From the NCBI RefSeq assembly GCF_003704105.1, contig NZ_QUOQ01000002.1, positions 1 to 64,000 on the forward strand: a DNA stretch of 64,000 nt. The letters run 5' to 3'. Origin of the DNA: Brevundimonas lutea. GTDB taxonomy: Bacteria > Pseudomonadota > Alphaproteobacteria > Caulobacterales > Caulobacteraceae. Shown piece by piece: positions 40,774 through 55,978 of this stretch. The notes beneath the pieces are model-generated. The model saw only the letters and a list, made by a program, of their open reading frames with translations, searched no databases and had not been told where the DNA came from. Both the position numbers and the translations under genes were made by a program. Numbering within the stretch: the first letter of the stretch is position 1; the number at the start of each line of letters is the position of its first letter.

Positions 40774-40807
40774 CCTTTACGACGAAGCGATGACAGTTTG
40801 GCGACAC
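40774..40807 (-). promoter_or_regulatory. PHO box and promoter of the pst-pho operon
   Basis: On the minus strand, GTGTCGC-CAAA-CTGTCAT (40807 to 40790) gives two 7-bp PhoB half-sites with a 4-bp spacer, i.e. an 11-bp period. Ten bases downstream TAAAGG (40779-40774) is a candidate -10 element, so the second half-site would replace the -35. It is 74-90 bp upstream of pstC. PhoB autoregulation is expected. Site class is known; binding here is inferred. Confidence 0.75.

Positions 40808-49256: not shown

Positions 49257-49260
<4 letters not shown>
48220..49260 (+). CDS. Gfo/Idh/MocA oxidoreductase (YhhX-like)
   Basis: 346 residues. NAD-binding GFGYAGRTFHAPLI (9-22), VVDKPFALDLAAARG with the catalytic lysine (about 93), HNRRWDADFLTLQALIAEGHLG and WMDLGPHLIDQALRLFG with the substrate-binding Asp/His. 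Sugar or inositol-like dehydrogenase; substrate not deducible. ATG 48220 has GGGAG upstream. Divergent from the MerR gene, so its transcription may also feel the operator. Confidence 0.87.
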
Positions 49261-50122
<862 letters not shown>

Positions 50123-50123
<1 letters not shown>

Positions 50124-51124
50124 CAGGCGGGCTCCTGCTGGGAGATGCAGTGGAACGAGCCGCCGCCGGTGAGGATGGCGGTGGAGGGCAGGGGGATGAT
50201 CTGGCGGTCGGGGAACACCGTCGCCAAGGCCTCGCAGGCGAGGCGGCCGGCAGTCTCGTCGCCATAGGTGGGCACGATCACCGCGCCGTTGGCGATCAGG
50301 AAGTTCATGTGGCTGGCCGGGACCGGTCGCTCGTCCTCGTCGCCGACGAAGCCGGGCGAGGGCACGCGCAGCACGCGGATCGGCCGCCCCTCGGCGTCGG
50401 TCATGGCGGCGAGGGTTCGCGCCGTCTCGTCATAGACATCGGCGTTCGGATCGTTGCGGCCGAACGCGATCGGACAGGCGACGACGCCCGGCGCGACGAA
50501 GCGGGCCAGGTTGTCGACATGGCCGTCGGTGTGGTCGTTCAAGAGGCCGTCGCCCAGCCACAGCACCGTTCTCGCGCCTAGGGCCTCGGCCAGGGCGGCC
50601 TCGGCCTTGTTGGCGGTCCAACCGGGGTTGCGGTTGGGATTGAGCAGGCACTGACGGGTGGTCAGGATGGTCCCGGCCCCGTCGTGGTCCAGCGCCCCGC
50701 CCTCCAGAATGAAGTCGTGGCGCAGTAGCTCGTCGCCGGCGTGGTCGGCGATCTGGCCGGCGACCTCGTCGTCGTGCGGCAGGTCGTATTTTCCGCCCCA
50801 GCCGTTGAACCGGAAGCCATGAGCGCGGCCGCCGGCGTCGAAGATCGGGCCGGTGTCCCTCAGCCAGATGTCGCCGAACCGCCCGGCGACCACCTCGACC
50901 CCCTCGACACCGGCGAAGCGGACGCGGGCGTCGGCCAAGGCGTCGTCATGGCCGACCAGCAGACGCACCTGCTCCCGACCCGGCCCGGCCAGGGCGCGGA
51001 CCAGGGCCTCGACCTCGCCCTGAGCAGCCGCGAGGTCGTCCTCCCACAGCTCGACATGGCTGGGCCAGCCGACCCACATGGCGCGGTGCGGCGACCATTC
51101 GGCGGGGATCAAACGGTCGGTCAT
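50123..51124 (-). CDS. aguA: Agmatine deiminase AguA
   Basis: 333 residues of the PAD-like amidinotransferase fold. WVGWPSHVELWEDDL, GDIWLRDTGPI, GWGGKYDLPHDDEV, GDGLLNDHTDGHVDNLARFV and the catalytic GGGSFHC (Cys326) close to the C-terminus match agmatine deiminase. Converts agmatine to N-carbamoylputrescine, upstream of AguB. Gives a putrescine route independent of ornithine decarboxylase. Confidence 0.95.
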
Positions 51125-51213
51125 GCGGCGGGCCTCTCGGAAACACGGTGGCGCCAGATAGGCACGGGTGCGCCCGGGATCAACGCTCGTGAGCTCGGCC
51201 CGACCAAAGTGAA

Positions 51214-51241
51214 AGGGGCGGACCGTCGCCGGTCCGCCCCT
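51214..51241 (-). terminator. Terminator of the TonB-receptor gene
   Basis: AGGGGCGGACC (51214-51224) pairs with GGTCCGCCCCT (51231-51241), an 11-bp stem with a 6-nt loop. Read on the minus strand it is followed by TTCACTTT, a weak T-tract. Starts 28 bases past the receptor stop. Confidence 0.7.
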
Positions 51242-51269: not shown

Positions 51270-54200
51270 TCAGAACTTGTAGCGGACACCGATCTTGGCC
51301 TGCCACACCGAATTGGTGGCGAAGGTCGCCGGGTTACGCTCGCTGAAGGTGCTGTAGAGGTACTGGTTGCCCACGATCGAGGCGCCGACATTGCCCGAGA
51401 AGTACGGGAAGCCGACCTGCTGGATCGTGCCCCACTCGTCGTTCAGCAGGTTGCCGAAGTTCTCGATCACGCCGTAGGCCTCGAGCTTGGCGCCGCCGGG
51501 GAAGAAGGCCGGCAGCTCTTGCGAGATGCTCAGGTCCACCGTGGTGACGTAAGGCGAGTTGAAGGCGTTCCGAGGCGAGATCTGACCGGCGTAGTTGATC
51601 AGACCCGTGCGCTGCAGGAAGTCATTGAAGTCGGCCAGGTTGAAGGCCGAGCCGAAGGTCACCAGCGGGTCGCTGGTGGCCGTGACCATGCCGCTCGAAT
51701 CCACCTGCGGCACATAGAGCAGCTGGCGGTTCGTGGAGATCGATTCGCCGAAGAAGTTGGAGGCGTAGGTGTAGCTGAACGGCAGACCCGAGCGACGCTG
51801 GGCATAGATGCCGAAGCGCGTGCGATAGTCGCCGAAGAAGGCCTTGGAGTAGTTCAGGCTCAGCTTCAGGGCATGCTCGATCTCGTAGTTCGAGGTCGCC
51901 AGGGTCGGGTTGTTCGGATCGAACAGACCGATGTTGCCGAAGTTGGAGCTGGCGGTCGACGACGTGGCCGGCGAACGATCCAGCGTGTCCAGCCACGTGT
52001 AGCTGAAGTTGAAGCCGAAGCCTTCCAGCCAGCCGTCGTACCAGTCCTTGCCCAGCGAGACGGCGAACTGATCGGTCTCACCGCCTTCGAAGTTGGTCAG
52101 CATGAGGACCTGCTGACCGCTGCGGACCGGGTTGCGCCCGAAGATCGGACGACCGTCGGGCGCCGTGCCGGTGATGGTCTCGTTCATCGACAGGTCGATC
52201 CAGCCCACCTCGTTCTCGAGCTCGGTGTGGACGTACTCGGCCGTCGCGTTCCAGCCGTCGCCCATGCCCCAGCGGGTCAGGTCGAAGAACTTGTTCACGC
52301 CCAGCGAGGCCTTCCACACGGTCGGGGTGACGAAGGCCGGATCGATCAGGTTGATGTTGCCGGTGCCCAGGTTCGCCGAGGCCGTGACGTTGTCCTTCAG
52401 CTGCTGGTTCGGATCGAAGCCGTCGACATTCTCGAGGATCGAGTTATCCGCGCACTCACCGAAGTTGCGGGCGAAGTTCGATTGATAGTCGTTGACCGTA
52501 CCGGGAACATTGACCTTGCACTGGAACGAGCCAGTGAGGTTGCCGGGGTTCGAGTAGCTGTTCGAAATCCAGACGTTCGGCGAGCCACCCTGGAACCGGC
52601 CGATGCCGCCGTAAACGGTCAGGCTTGGATCCGGACGCCAGTTGAAACCGAAGCGCGGCTGGACCACCGCGATACCGTCCAGGTTCTTGGTGTTCTCGAA
52701 GCCGAAGCGATCGAAGAAGCCCTGGTTGTACTGGGGTTCGTCGTCCGAGGTGTACCAGTCATACCGGACGCCCATGGTCAGGGTCAGCTCCGGCGTGGCC
52801 TGCCATTCATCCTGCAGATACAGGCTGTTCTGCGCGTACTTGAAGGCTGCGGCGCCGTCGTTCTTGTCGTTCGAGGCGGCGTTGGTGTAGCCGACCGAAG
52901 ACGCGCGTCGCGCCCGATAGTCGTCGAGCGAGGCGAACTCGTACTCGCCGTTCGCGACCTGGACGAACAGGTTGAAGATGTCCTGCTCCTCGCGCTCGTA
53001 GCCGCCAGTGAAGCGGTGGCCGAAGCCCGGGGTCCAGTTGCCGACCGCGCGGAAGGTCGTGGTGTCGATGGTCAGTTCATTGGCGTGACGCGACCGTTCC
53101 GGGCCAAGCCGGATGGACCGGCGCGGGCCAGTCTGCGTACCGAACGGGCTGTCGAGATAGACTTGGAAGGCGGCGAAGTCGCTGCCGGCCAAGGGGCTGG
53201 AGACGTTCTCGACTTCCTTGGTGGCAAACGACAGTTCGGTCGAGAAGGTGTCGGTCCAGTCCGAGAAAATCTGACCCTTGATCGACTTCAGATTGGTCAC
53301 ATAGCTGTAGGCTTGCGACAGCAGGCCGACCGACGGGTAGGTGCCCGAGGTCGAGGTGCCGTTCAGGCGCAGGTCGCCGCCCTCGGTCTGCTGATACGAC
53401 AGCACCGCGCGATGACGGTCGTTGATGTTCCAGTCCAGCTTGCCGAACCACTTTTCGTCCTCGACCGTGAGGTTCGAGGCGGCCCAGTCCAGCGGGTCGT
53501 AGCCGTAGACGTCCTGGGTGATCTGACGAACCAGGTCGATGTCGGCCTGGGTGATGCCATCAACCTCGTTCGGCACGCCCGAGCCTTCGGGCCCGAGCAG
53601 GTTCGGCTGGGTGGATTCGAAGAACTCGTAGTTCAGCAGGAAGAACAGGCGGTCACGCAGGATCGGACCCGACAGGGTGGCGCCCCACGTGGTCTCTTCG
53701 AACTCGCCGCTGATGGCCGGCGGGTTCATGCGCTCGCCGGTGACGAAGTCCTCGTAGCTGAAGGTATTGCCCAGCAGGCCGTCGTTGGTGGTTTCGTAGA
53801 AGGCCTCGCCTTCAAACTCGTTTCCGCCCGACTTGGTGACCGAGTTGATCACGCCGCCGGTGAAGCTGCCGTACTGGACGCCATACGGGGCGACATCGAC
53901 CGACACCGCTTCCAGCACGCCGATGGAGATCGGGGTGCCGACGGTGGGATAGCCGTTGCCGTTCAGGCCGAAGTCGTCGCCCTGACGCACGCCGTCGATC
54001 AGGAAGGCGTTGTAGCGGGTGTTCTGGCCGCCGATGGACAGCGCGTTGTTGTTGGTCGGGTCGACCGTGGCGAACGGCGAGGTGCGGACGAAGTCCTTGA
54101 TGTCGCGGCTGATCGACGGAAGCGTCTCAAGGTCGTTCAGACCGAAGGTCGAACGCGGGGCGGTCTTGCGGGCGCCCGGACGGACGCCGGTGACCACAAT

Positions 54201-54575
54201 CTCTTCCAGCTCGGTCGCGCCGGCGTCGGCGCCGCCGCTCAGCAGCAGGTCCAGGTTGGCCGGAACGCCGATGCCGATCGAAGGCAGGATGGCCGATTCC
54301 GGCTCGATGCCCGCCGCCGAAACCGTGACTTCGTAGGGGCCGCCGACGCGCAGGTTGCGCGCGTCGTACAGACCGCTTTCGTCGGTCAGGGTGGTGGTCG
54401 AGGTGCCCGACGGTGCGTGGGTGATGGTCACGGTCGCGCCCGAGACGGGCATGCCGCTCGCATCGACGATCTGGCCGCGGATGCCCCCGGTTGTTTCCTG
54501 GGCGAAGACGGCCGTCGAGGCGGCCAGCGCGATCACGGCCGCCGAAGCGCCGTAGGCGAACCTGCTTTTCAGCAT
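51270..54575 (-). CDS. Oar-like TonB-dependent receptor with carboxypeptidase-regulatory N-domain
   Basis: 1101 residues. A signal peptide (1-26, STAVFAQ) leads to an Ig-like CarboxypepD_reg domain (about 30-105; GGIRGQIVDASGMPVSGATVTITH, GLYDARNLRVGGPYEVTVSAAGIE), then the plug (about 120-230; EEIVVTGVRPGARKTAPRSTF, NTRYNAFLIDGVRQGDDFG) and a 22-strand barrel ending in a terminal Phe (KIGVRYKF). Oar-type receptors import large or unknown substrates. Start at ATG 54575, since residues before are promoter-derived. A PHO box lies 110 bp upstream, hinting at phosphate or phospho-ester uptake. Confidence 0.9.
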   Translation of the reverse strand: MLKSRFAYGASAAVIALAASTAVFAQETTGGIRGQIVDASGMPVSGATVTITHAPSGTSTTTLTDESGLYDARNLRVGGPYEVTVSAAGIEPESAILPSIGIGVPANLDLLLSGGADAGATELEEIVVTGVRPGARKTAPRSTFGLNDLETLPSISRDIKDFVRTSPFATVDPTNNNALSIGGQNTRYNAFLIDGVRQGDDFGLNGNGYPTVGTPISIGVLEAVSVDVAPYGVQYGSFTGGVINSVTKSGGNEFEGEAFYETTNDGLLGNTFSYEDFVTGERMNPPAISGEFEETTWGATLSGPILRDRLFFLLNYEFFESTQPNLLGPEGSGVPNEVDGITQADIDLVRQITQDVYGYDPLDWAASNLTVEDEKWFGKLDWNINDRHRAVLSYQQTEGGDLRLNGTSTSGTYPSVGLLSQAYSYVTNLKSIKGQIFSDWTDTFSTELSFATKEVENVSSPLAGSDFAAFQVYLDSPFGTQTGPRRSIRLGPERSRHANELTIDTTTFRAVGNWTPGFGHRFTGGYEREEQDIFNLFVQVANGEYEFASLDDYRARRASSVGYTNAASNDKNDGAAAFKYAQNSLYLQDEWQATPELTLTMGVRYDWYTSDDEPQYNQGFFDRFGFENTKNLDGIAVVQPRFGFNWRPDPSLTVYGGIGRFQGGSPNVWISNSYSNPGNLTGSFQCKVNVPGTVNDYQSNFARNFGECADNSILENVDGFDPNQQLKDNVTASANLGTGNINLIDPAFVTPTVWKASLGVNKFFDLTRWGMGDGWNATAEYVHTELENEVGWIDLSMNETITGTAPDGRPIFGRNPVRSGQQVLMLTNFEGGETDQFAVSLGKDWYDGWLEGFGFNFSYTWLDTLDRSPATSSTASSNFGNIGLFDPNNPTLATSNYEIEHALKLSLNYSKAFFGDYRTRFGIYAQRRSGLPFSYTYASNFFGESISTNRQLLYVPQVDSSGMVTATSDPLVTFGSAFNLADFNDFLQRTGLINYAGQISPRNAFNSPYVTTVDLSISQELPAFFPGGAKLEAYGVIENFGNLLNDEWGTIQQVGFPYFSGNVGASIVGNQYLYSTFSERNPATFATNSVWQAKIGVRYKF

Positions 54576-54657
54576 TTCTAGAATGTCCCCTCTGCGCGCG
54601 CACGGCCGCCCCAGAGTGGGACGCATCTACGTGGACGCCAGCTAACGAGTGGGCACT

Positions 54658-54713
54658 CCTTTAAGCGCGACTCGCCTCCGATGGGCGACAGATTCGTGAC
54701 AGAGATATGACTT
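54658..54713 (-). promoter_or_regulatory. PHO box upstream of the Oar-like receptor
   Basis: On the minus strand CTGTCAC-GAAT-CTGTCGC (54702 to 54685) matches the PhoB box: two 7-bp half-sites spaced 4 bp. A third weaker half-site AAGTCAT (54713-54707) precedes it in the same 11-bp register. Downstream, TAAAGG (54663-54658) is a candidate -10, placed 21 bases away instead of 10 at pstC, a one-turn difference. About 110 bp upstream of the receptor ATG. Confidence 0.7.
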
Positions 54714-54764
54714 CCCGGGAGTCGTTGCTGCGTTGCAACACCGGCGTTGCCCGAGCATGGGGTC

Positions 54765-55223
54765 TCAGGCCGGCGCGACCATCTGCATCGCCAGCCATTC
54801 CGCGACCAGAGCCGGCTTCGGTTCGCCTTCGATTTCCACGGTCAGGGTGTGCTTCAGCAGCCACCGCCCCGCGCCCTTGTCCTCAGCCGACATCAGGACG
54901 AAGCGGCCGCGAACGCGCGCGCCGGAGGGAACGGGCGTCAGGAAGCGGACCCGGTCCAGGCCGTAGTTGAGGCCCATCATGACCCCATCCAGCGGGCGCA
55001 CGGCGTCATAGCTCATGGCCGAGGCCAGGCTGAGGGTCAGGAACCCGTGCGCCACGGTCCCACCGAGCGGTGTCTGGGCCGCCAGCTTCGGATCGGTGTG
55101 GATGAACTGCCGATCCTCGGTGACCTCGGCGAAGGCGTCGATCCGCGCCTGGTCCAGGGTGAACCAGCGGCTGACCCCGACCTCCTGGCCGATGAGAGCG
55201 GGCAGTTCGGCGACGGTGGGCAT
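54765..55223 (-). CDS. MaoC-like (R)-enoyl-CoA hydratase
   Basis: 152 residues with a hot-dog fold. ARIDAFAEVTEDRQFIHTDPKLAAQTPLGGTVAHGFLTLSLASAMS contains the hydratase-2 Asp/His pair (D of EDRQFIH, H of FIHTDP). Hydrates trans-2-enoyl-CoA to the (R)-3-hydroxy form for PHA or lipid use. Start ATG 55223. Followed upstream on the strand by the hydrolase gene, 11 bp apart. Confidence 0.9.
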   Translation of the reverse strand: MPTVAELPALIGQEVGVSRWFTLDQARIDAFAEVTEDRQFIHTDPKLAAQTPLGGTVAHGFLTLSLASAMSYDAVRPLDGVMMGLNYGLDRVRFLTPVPSGARVRGRFVLMSAEDKGAGRWLLKHTLTVEIEGEPKPALVAEWLAMQMVAPA

Positions 55224-55234
55224 GGACGAAACTC

Positions 55235-55978
55235 CTAGAGGGCACGCAGACGATCGACGGCGGCGATCAGGCGATCGAGGTCTTGAGGCCGGGAAAGGCG
55301 GTGGTCGCCATCCTCGATCAACTCCAGGGTGACGTCGGCGCCCTCGATCAGATCGACCGTACGCAGCGCATGACGCCACGGCACGCTGTCGTCCAGCCGG
55401 CCCTGGAGAATATGGATCGCTCCGGCGGCGCGGATGGGCGCGTCGAGGATGAGGCGATCGCGCGCCTCCTCGAACATCCGGCGGGTCAGGACATAGTCGC
55501 CCAAGCCCTTCTCCGAGATCATCGCCTCGCCGTCCCGCAGGATGGCCTGGCGCGTGTGGTCCTCCAGCGAGGGCCACATCAGCCGCTCGGTGAAGTCGGC
55601 CGCCGGGGCGATCAGCACGGTGGCGGCGATCCGCTCCGGCCTCATGGTCTGCAACAGAAGGGCCAGCCATCCTCCCAGAGACGAGCCGACCGGCAGCACC
55701 GGCCCCTCGATGGCGTCGATCATGGCGGCCGCGTCCTCGGCCCAGCGACCAATGGTGGCCTGGCGCCAGTCGCCCGAGGAGGCGCCATGGGCGAAGTGGT
55801 CGAACCGGACATAGGCCCAGCCGCGCTCGGCCGCCGCCTGGTCCAGCGCCAAGGCCTTGGTCCCCTCCATGTCGGATCGAAATCCCCCGATCCACAAAAC
55901 GGTGGGGCCTGTTCCCTCCCGCCGATGATAGGCCAGGGTTTCGCCGTCGGGCCGGCGGAGGCGTTGGAGTTCGGTCAT
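55235..55978 (-). CDS. Alpha/beta hydrolase
   Basis: 247 residues. VLWIGGFRSDMEGTKALALDQAAAERGWAYVRFDHFAHGASSG with the oxyanion region, nucleophile elbow VGSSLGGWLAL (Ser about 99), Asp in LQGRLDDSVPW (about 195) and His in EDGDHRLSRPQDL (about 225). The cluster resembles mitochondrial ABHD10-like thioesterases. Cytosolic; substrate unknown. Divergent from the 56080 operon; the GACAAG palindromes lie between them. Confidence 0.87.
   Translation of the reverse strand: MTELQRLRRPDGETLAYHRREGTGPTVLWIGGFRSDMEGTKALALDQAAAERGWAYVRFDHFAHGASSGDWRQATIGRWAEDAAAMIDAIEGPVLPVGSSLGGWLALLLQTMRPERIAATVLIAPAADFTERLMWPSLEDHTRQAILRDGEAMISEKGLGDYVLTRRMFEEARDRLILDAPIRAAGAIHILQGRLDDSVPWRHALRTVDLIEGADVTLELIEDGDHRLSRPQDLDRLIAAVDRLRAL

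Follow-up and report, generated by a model that had tools for sequence, protein, structure and literature searches.

Oar-like TonB receptors combine a CarboxypepD_reg domain with a Plug domain and a barrel. To our knowledge, neither control by phosphate nor an aguAB neighbour forms part of that definition. In plant Bacteroidetes, a low-phosphate study reportedly dealt with receptors of the SusCD-like kind. The part of that study drawn on here links TonB-type uptake to the use of organic phosphorus (PMC8115612). For Caulobacter, the PhoB regulon is described in the passages cited here as including 'various TonB-dependent receptors' (PMC11208175), and the receptor gene cc0171, which adjoins elpS and gsp genes, is reported in the cited section of another study to be constitutive (PMC2996285).

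Here we describe a locus of Brevundimonas lutea at which a PHO box precedes the gene of a TonB-dependent receptor, and follow it through related genomes. The window, that is, the whole stretch of DNA analysed, comprises 64,000 nucleotides (contig NZ_QUOQ01000002.1, positions 1 to 64,000), and positions are those of the window unless another contig is named. On comparative sequence evidence we consider it highly probable that the segment 54685-54713 is the PhoB-activated promoter of an exchangeable receptor slot, the occupant of which would import a scarce, probably phosphorus-bearing compound.

Results

A PHO box and promoter ahead of the receptor gene

On the minus strand, positions 54713-54685 read AAGTCAT-ATCT-CTGTCAC-GAAT-CTGTCGC, and the sequence itself, pattern scans and matrix scans all mark a PHO box of three half-sites in an 11-bp register: AAGTCAT (54713-54707), CTGTCAC (54702-54696) and CTGTCGC (54691-54685). 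The initial annotation had reported CTGTCAC-GAAT-CTGTCGC with a third, weaker half-site in the same register, all of which is present; the weaker AAGTCAT is the upstream-most of the three and stands in register with the other two. Against a CTGTCAY-like pattern, the half-sites show 2, 0 and 0 mismatches, giving at least the two half-sites by which a PhoB promoter is recognised. On the same strand, a -10-like TTAAAG (54664-54659) lies 20 bp past the last half-site, and a Shine-Dalgarno-like AGGGGAC can be read at 54591-54585. Because of the latter, the receptor start at 54575 is preferred over the earlier ATG at 54626 in the open reading frame listing. The MaoC-like gene upstream of the receptor is likewise on the minus strand and ends at 54765. 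A plus-strand open reading frame of 163 aa (54747-55238) is antisense to this gene and was not counted as a gene.

The plain consensus alone is little proof of such a site, since the window holds 10 double-box matches when 3 mismatches are permitted, compared with a mean of 11.4 in shuffles. Across the 2.98-Mb genome, double boxes with at most 2 mismatches number 34, against 20 for a reversed-pattern control, and those with 1 mismatch are confined to 4 sites, the receptor site among them. At 1 mismatch, a relaxed triple pattern has two matches genome-wide, at pstC and at the receptor promoter, and the sole genome site with 2 mismatches to it lies ahead of a gspC-like gene.

The box at pstC (40779..40807, minus strand) was found by consensus, triple-pattern and matrix scans. 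At its locus a domain scan recognised pstC, pstA and phoU, with an ABC ATPase at the place of pstB and a response regulator at that of phoB. A PHO matrix was built from pstC promoters of Brevundimonas (29 of 30, that of the window among them) and contains no receptor promoter. Run over the window, it ranked pstC first (28.9) and the receptor site second (18.3) among 127,944 positions, the next score being 8.2. A score below that of pstC is expected of a matrix derived from pstC promoters. The proposition that the receptor has a better box than pstC held for the double consensus (1 versus 2 mismatches), came out even on the relaxed triple pattern and failed on the pstC-derived matrix. The decisive evidence for the predicted box, itself comparative, is its kept position across the order.

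Further PHO-like boxes occur elsewhere in the same genome. The gspC-like type II secretion gene (PF11356) is preceded by the site with 2 mismatches to the triple pattern, at C1:255508-255536; a box there is what one would predict if PhoB governs type II secretion in this genome as it does in Caulobacter. A 2-mismatch box at C3:442926-442943 lies 50 bp upstream of a gene for a 558-aa protein with a signal peptide (recognised by eye) and a Type I phosphodiesterase domain (PF01663). Another 2-mismatch box (C1:423190-423207) is found near the start of a second receptor-like protein, the carboxypeptidase-regulatory-like N-terminus of which was named by eye.

Conservation of the box in relatives

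The receptor was located in 61 related genomes, and the 30-260 bp upstream of it were scanned. At up to 2 mismatches, 35 of 36 Brevundimonas genomes have a PHO box in the corresponding position, a count from which G013 was left out as its contig begins within the receptor, without upstream DNA. In other families of the order, the box is found in 16 of 24 genomes at up to 2 mismatches and in 22 of 24 at up to 3. Random pieces of the window gave 1 match in 3973 at up to 2 mismatches and 44 in 3973 at up to 3; the antisense control gave 0 of 62 at up to 2 and 6 of 62 at 3. The sole Brevundimonas genome without the box, G028, counts as boxless because its receptor is without its N-terminus: the slot receptor lacks the first ~150 residues and the PHO promoter is missing. 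A related N-terminal piece with 55% identity is present elsewhere in that genome, at C1:1092042.

In all 35 Brevundimonas triple-box promoters a loose -10-like pattern is placed exactly at +20, a fixed distance from box to -10 being one mark of a PhoB promoter, and 34 of the 35 are distinct in the 30 bp past the box. The claim of the initial annotation that an Oar-like TonB receptor is under PhoB control is thereby strongly supported by comparative sequence, from which we infer PhoB binding and induction at this promoter.

In other genera within the family the picture at the slot is different: only 4 of 30 loci have a box at up to 2 mismatches, and 11 of 30 at up to 3. PhoB control at the slot appears to be weak or lost in these genera, and is not universal, given how often the box is degraded there. 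In one such genus, three loci (L132, L133 and L109) have different receptor types behind very similar promoters, that of L132 and L133 being CCGTAGCAAAACCGTCACCAACG, then GCGCTATAGGGG. The promoter common to the three may be a decayed PHO box or the site of another regulator. In some of the promoter comparisons receptor starts were set by a signal-peptide rule, which gave no callable start in the Brevundimonas loci L154 and L061.

The receptor, its neighbours and the transcription unit

The gene behind the box (51270..54575, minus strand) encodes an Oar-like TonB-dependent receptor of 1101 aa with a signal peptide, identified by eye, followed by CarboxypepD_reg, Plug and an OMP_b-brl_4 barrel. 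Matches to Plug (25.0 bits; cut-off 23.9) and to the barrel families PF25183 (137.9 bits) and PF00593 (30.0 bits) identify it as a TonB-dependent receptor, and the N-terminal CarboxypepD_reg domain before the plug (PF13620, 62.8 bits, residues 49-112 of the longer open reading frame) as an Oar-like one.

Next come, on the same strand, an agmatine deiminase-like aguA (PAD_porph; 50123..51124) and the N-carbamoylputrescine amidase gene aguB (49257..50123). AguB reaches 462 bits on TIGR03381, above the equivalog cut-off of 410.25; AguA scores 362.4 bits on PF04371 and 245.8 on TIGR03380, below the equivalog cut-off of 381.8. Among the neighbours scanned on either side of the receptor, no phosphatase, phytase or other phosphorus gene was recognised. 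By our own reading of the genome searches, receptor and aguA adjoin in 36 of 37 Brevundimonas genomes (in the 37th, G018, they are on different contigs, with the receptor at a contig end) and lie within 5 kb of each other in 14 of 17 aguA-bearing genomes of other families. Of 149 genomes of the family, drawn from a larger group, 145 have AguA, and DNA upstream of aguA was taken from 40 and then 18 of the set. In G013, the aguA match (C113:2211-3196) is in two pieces, one of which has two in-frame TGA codons.

A terminator-like hairpin (51206..51240, minus strand), with an 11-bp perfect stem, a GCGA loop and the tail TTTCACTTT, is situated 29 nt past the receptor stop, and the fold of the 91-nt region that contains it has a z of -5.2. 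With G-U pairs permitted, 61 of 63 loci (32 of 33 in Brevundimonas) have a hairpin of this kind behind the receptor, compared with 0 of 63 shuffled gaps. A strict rule, allowing Watson-Crick stems only, then at least 5 T of 9, finds it in 22 of 63 gaps, and a generic terminator scan did not list the hairpin of the window. Since almost every relative examined has a terminator-like hairpin at this point, as the window does, the receptor is probably transcribed alone; read-through into aguA may still occur. A PHO box of its own, at up to 3 mismatches, is lacking from aguA in 39 of 40 loci. The one exception, in G079, has a PHO-like box with 1 mismatch 99 bp upstream of aguA, on a contig that ends before any receptor. 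With the hairpin, and a boxed aguA in 1 of 40 loci only, we would sooner call aguAB a conserved neighbour of the PHO unit than a proven member of it. An operon of receptor, aguA and aguB, as the kept gene order suggests, is weakened by the hairpin and the boxless aguA, and also by Oar-type receptors in seven genomes where aguA has no match at 1e-40; among these, G059 has a perfect PHO box.

One slot, two receptor types

Examination of 73 loci that have aguA and DNA before it revealed that the slot ahead of aguA-aguB holds either an Oar-like receptor of ~1100 aa or a conventional TonB receptor of ~820 aa, in which no CarboxypepD_reg domain was found. Both types together occur in none of the 73, and a receptor was not recognised before aguA in 6, none of them Brevundimonas. 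In Brevundimonas, all 33 slots contain a receptor, 17 of them Oar-like and 16 of the 820 type. At the level of genomes, types were called from at most ~15 first-look candidates in each of the 61 genomes (Oar match at 1e-30, 820-type match at 1e-60), giving 35 with an Oar-like receptor and 28 with the 820 type; 59 have exactly one, none has neither and two (G033 and G034) have both, with the proviso that second copies could escape so limited a scoring. The two types are thus nearly exclusive of each other (Fisher 3e-15, a value that ignores kinship). In phmmer searches of solved structures, the best match for one 820-type receptor was CntO (6i96).

Both receptor types carry the same PHO promoter in Brevundimonas, whereas no box was found at the off-slot receptor copies of G033 and G034, the best having 4 mismatches. 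The box therefore goes with the place. The initial annotation had tied phosphate control to the Oar-like receptor family, whereas the box belongs to the locus: in 16 of the 33 Brevundimonas slots it is the other family that sits behind this promoter. By this comparison, what is kept is the locus and not the Oar-like receptor.

What the slot may import

In a narrower form of our explanation, what the receptor takes up would be organic phosphate, be it phytate, phospholipid head groups or phosphate complexes, with hydrolysis following in the periplasm; we find this reading tenable though a little doubtful. It draws on the PhoB control indicated by box conservation and matrix rank, and on the PHO-like boxes that the same genome has at the gspC-like gene and at the phosphodiesterase/phosphatase-like gene, which make a scheme of mobilisation followed by import plausible. 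Moreover, the uptake of alternative phosphate donors is proposed for Caulobacter receptors in the cited part of PMC11208175. Less favourably, phmmer finds no relative of the window receptor among solved structures at E up to 1, an AlphaFold model from a five-row alignment has a mean pLDDT of 27, and the receptor has no recognised phosphorus gene beside it. Phosphorus in the ligand is plausible.

Alternatively, the slot could import agmatine or a guanidino compound for the AguA-AguB pathway, with phosphate control being secondary. The kept proximity of receptor and aguA within Brevundimonas and in other families speaks for such a role, as does the lack of any recognised arginine decarboxylase of the families PF02784, PF01276 and PF01862 in the B. 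lutea genome, so that agmatine would come from outside or from an unsearched enzyme. Searches with PF01276 and PF01862 returned zero proteins; PF02784 matched two, each 420-430 aa long; judged by eye, one is LysA-like and the other an ornithine decarboxylase, the latter with only 27 bits on the arginine decarboxylase model speA. Nevertheless, we judge this role unlikely, for the hairpin separates receptor from aguA in nearly every locus, aguA almost always lacks a PHO box, and Oar-type receptors are found without an aguA match, in G059 behind a perfect box.

Receptor exchange at the slot

To count changes of type, a quick tree of AguA+AguB was made from 33 Brevundimonas loci and 7 loci of other genera, with 12 of its 37 inner branches open; G018 was left out, having no aguA on its receptor contig. 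Receptor type changes at least 7 times within the 33 Brevundimonas, and the starred branches alone require 6 changes over all 40 rows of the tree. Shuffled labels need 13.7 changes on average, indicating that the types are clustered rather than random.

We aligned eight pairs of loci that differ in receptor type, using blastn with an E cut-off of 1e-5. None of the eight has a homologous piece over the receptor; in every pair, homology returns around the receptor stop codon and continues into aguA. Upstream homology is present in seven pairs and spans the PHO promoter in six. In five of these it passes through the promoter and ends 49-78 bp before the receptor start (one partner's start is not callable), and in one it extends into the signal peptide (+41); in the pair L138/L166, the piece ends at -190. 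The eighth pair, which includes the window, has downstream homology only because the partner contig begins there. Divergence is also seen within types. Among 14 same-type pairs with AguAB identities of 0.90-0.95, the median receptor identity is 0.62 (0.50-0.94), and two pairs have receptors at 0.50 with AguAB at 0.93 and 0.95. Exchange is not constant, however, since the seven closest pairs (AguAB at least 0.95) have receptors alike at 0.94-0.97.

The same alternation at one locus would be predicted if the two types were ancestral tandem neighbours, one of which was lost in each lineage without any exchange. We regard this history as distinctly improbable: the two types never share a locus among the 73, at least 7 such deletions would be required, homology in the eight pairs resumes near the receptor stop and ends upstream mostly 49-78 bp before the start, and receptors of one type frequently diverge much more than AguAB does. 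These observations are better explained by replacement of the coding sequence between promoter and terminator than by loss from a tandem pair.

Oar of Myxococcus xanthus works in the export of the protease PopC, and the Oar-like receptor might similarly serve protein export, with type II secretion under the same control. Its domain layout and the PHO-like box at the gspC-like gene agree with such a function, but a conventional receptor with no CarboxypepD_reg domain found takes the same slot in almost half of the Brevundimonas loci, and we think export very unlikely. OmpR-family regulators bind direct repeats, and the repeat could be read by a member of the OmpR/PhoB family other than PhoB, an idea to which we give hardly any credence. 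The example considered, ChvI, controls the TonB receptor ChvT in Caulobacter, but its motif, reported in the cited part of PMC9731502 as TTGC-N3-GCAA and itself only predicted, differs from the receptor box, on which ground ChvI is ruled out, and the matrix that picks out the receptor site comes from pstC promoters.

Discussion

We propose that, on phosphate starvation, PhoB~P would occupy the three tandem half-sites and recruit RNA polymerase to the -10 element twenty bases downstream, leading to production of one outer-membrane TonB-dependent receptor from a gene that is probably transcribed singly. The locus would thus act as a receptor slot, bounded by the PHO promoter and, at its far end, by the terminator and aguA-aguB; within these bounds the coding sequence of the receptor appears to have been swapped as a cassette many times, both within and between two families. 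Working alongside Pst, each occupant would most likely give the starved cell energised uptake of some scarce compound, probably one that bears phosphorus. The weak points of this PhoB-controlled slot are the weak first half-site in the window, a count of type changes that is a minimum and an antisense control that is not empty at 3 mismatches.

More broadly, and as a possibility rather than a probability, the slot of Caulobacterales may keep its PhoB promoter and terminator while the receptor that they enclose is exchanged as a cassette for distant alleles or for a different receptor family. The occupants would be interchangeable for the same phosphate-starvation need, and turnover would be driven by phages or bacteriocins exploiting the exposed receptor, or by shifting phosphorus ligands. 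If such a cassette slot exists, regulation is inherited with the place and not with the protein. The ligands of TonB receptors are usually assigned by family resemblance; the substitution of two families under one starvation promoter suggests that locus and regulation may predict function better than receptor sequence. The slot offers a natural set of swapped receptors for asking what phosphate-starved cells import across the outer membrane, a question that stands equally for the PhoB-induced receptors of Caulobacter, and whether phage or bacteriocin attack drives receptor turnover.

In the open-licence literature on PhoB in Caulobacter and Brevundimonas, TonB receptors, agmatine deiminase and receptor exchange, we found no report of the slot locus, nor any paper on Oar with phosphate limitation. 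Compared with known Oar-like receptors, the window receptor has the same domain order and size, and the sequence search found no solved relative of it. The SusCD-like receptors of plant Bacteroidetes belong to a different phylum, and no SusD partner was seen beside the window receptor. The cc0171/elpS system of Caulobacter resembles the present locus in that a TonB receptor is discussed together with phosphate starvation and type II secretion, but cc0171 is described in the cited section as constitutive beside elpS and gsp genes (PMC2996285), whereas the window receptor has a PHO box and aguA-aguB as neighbour. The nearest parallel is the PhoB regulon of Caulobacter crescentus, in which PhoB-activated TonB receptors accompany Pst and type II secretion; in the part of that work cited here, these receptors are entries in a list of induced genes (PMC11208175). 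Beyond Brevundimonas, the box at the slot is often weak or absent in the genera sampled from this family. PhoB-controlled receptors were thus already known; what appears to be new is a single locus at which one receptor family replaces another behind a constant PHO promoter.
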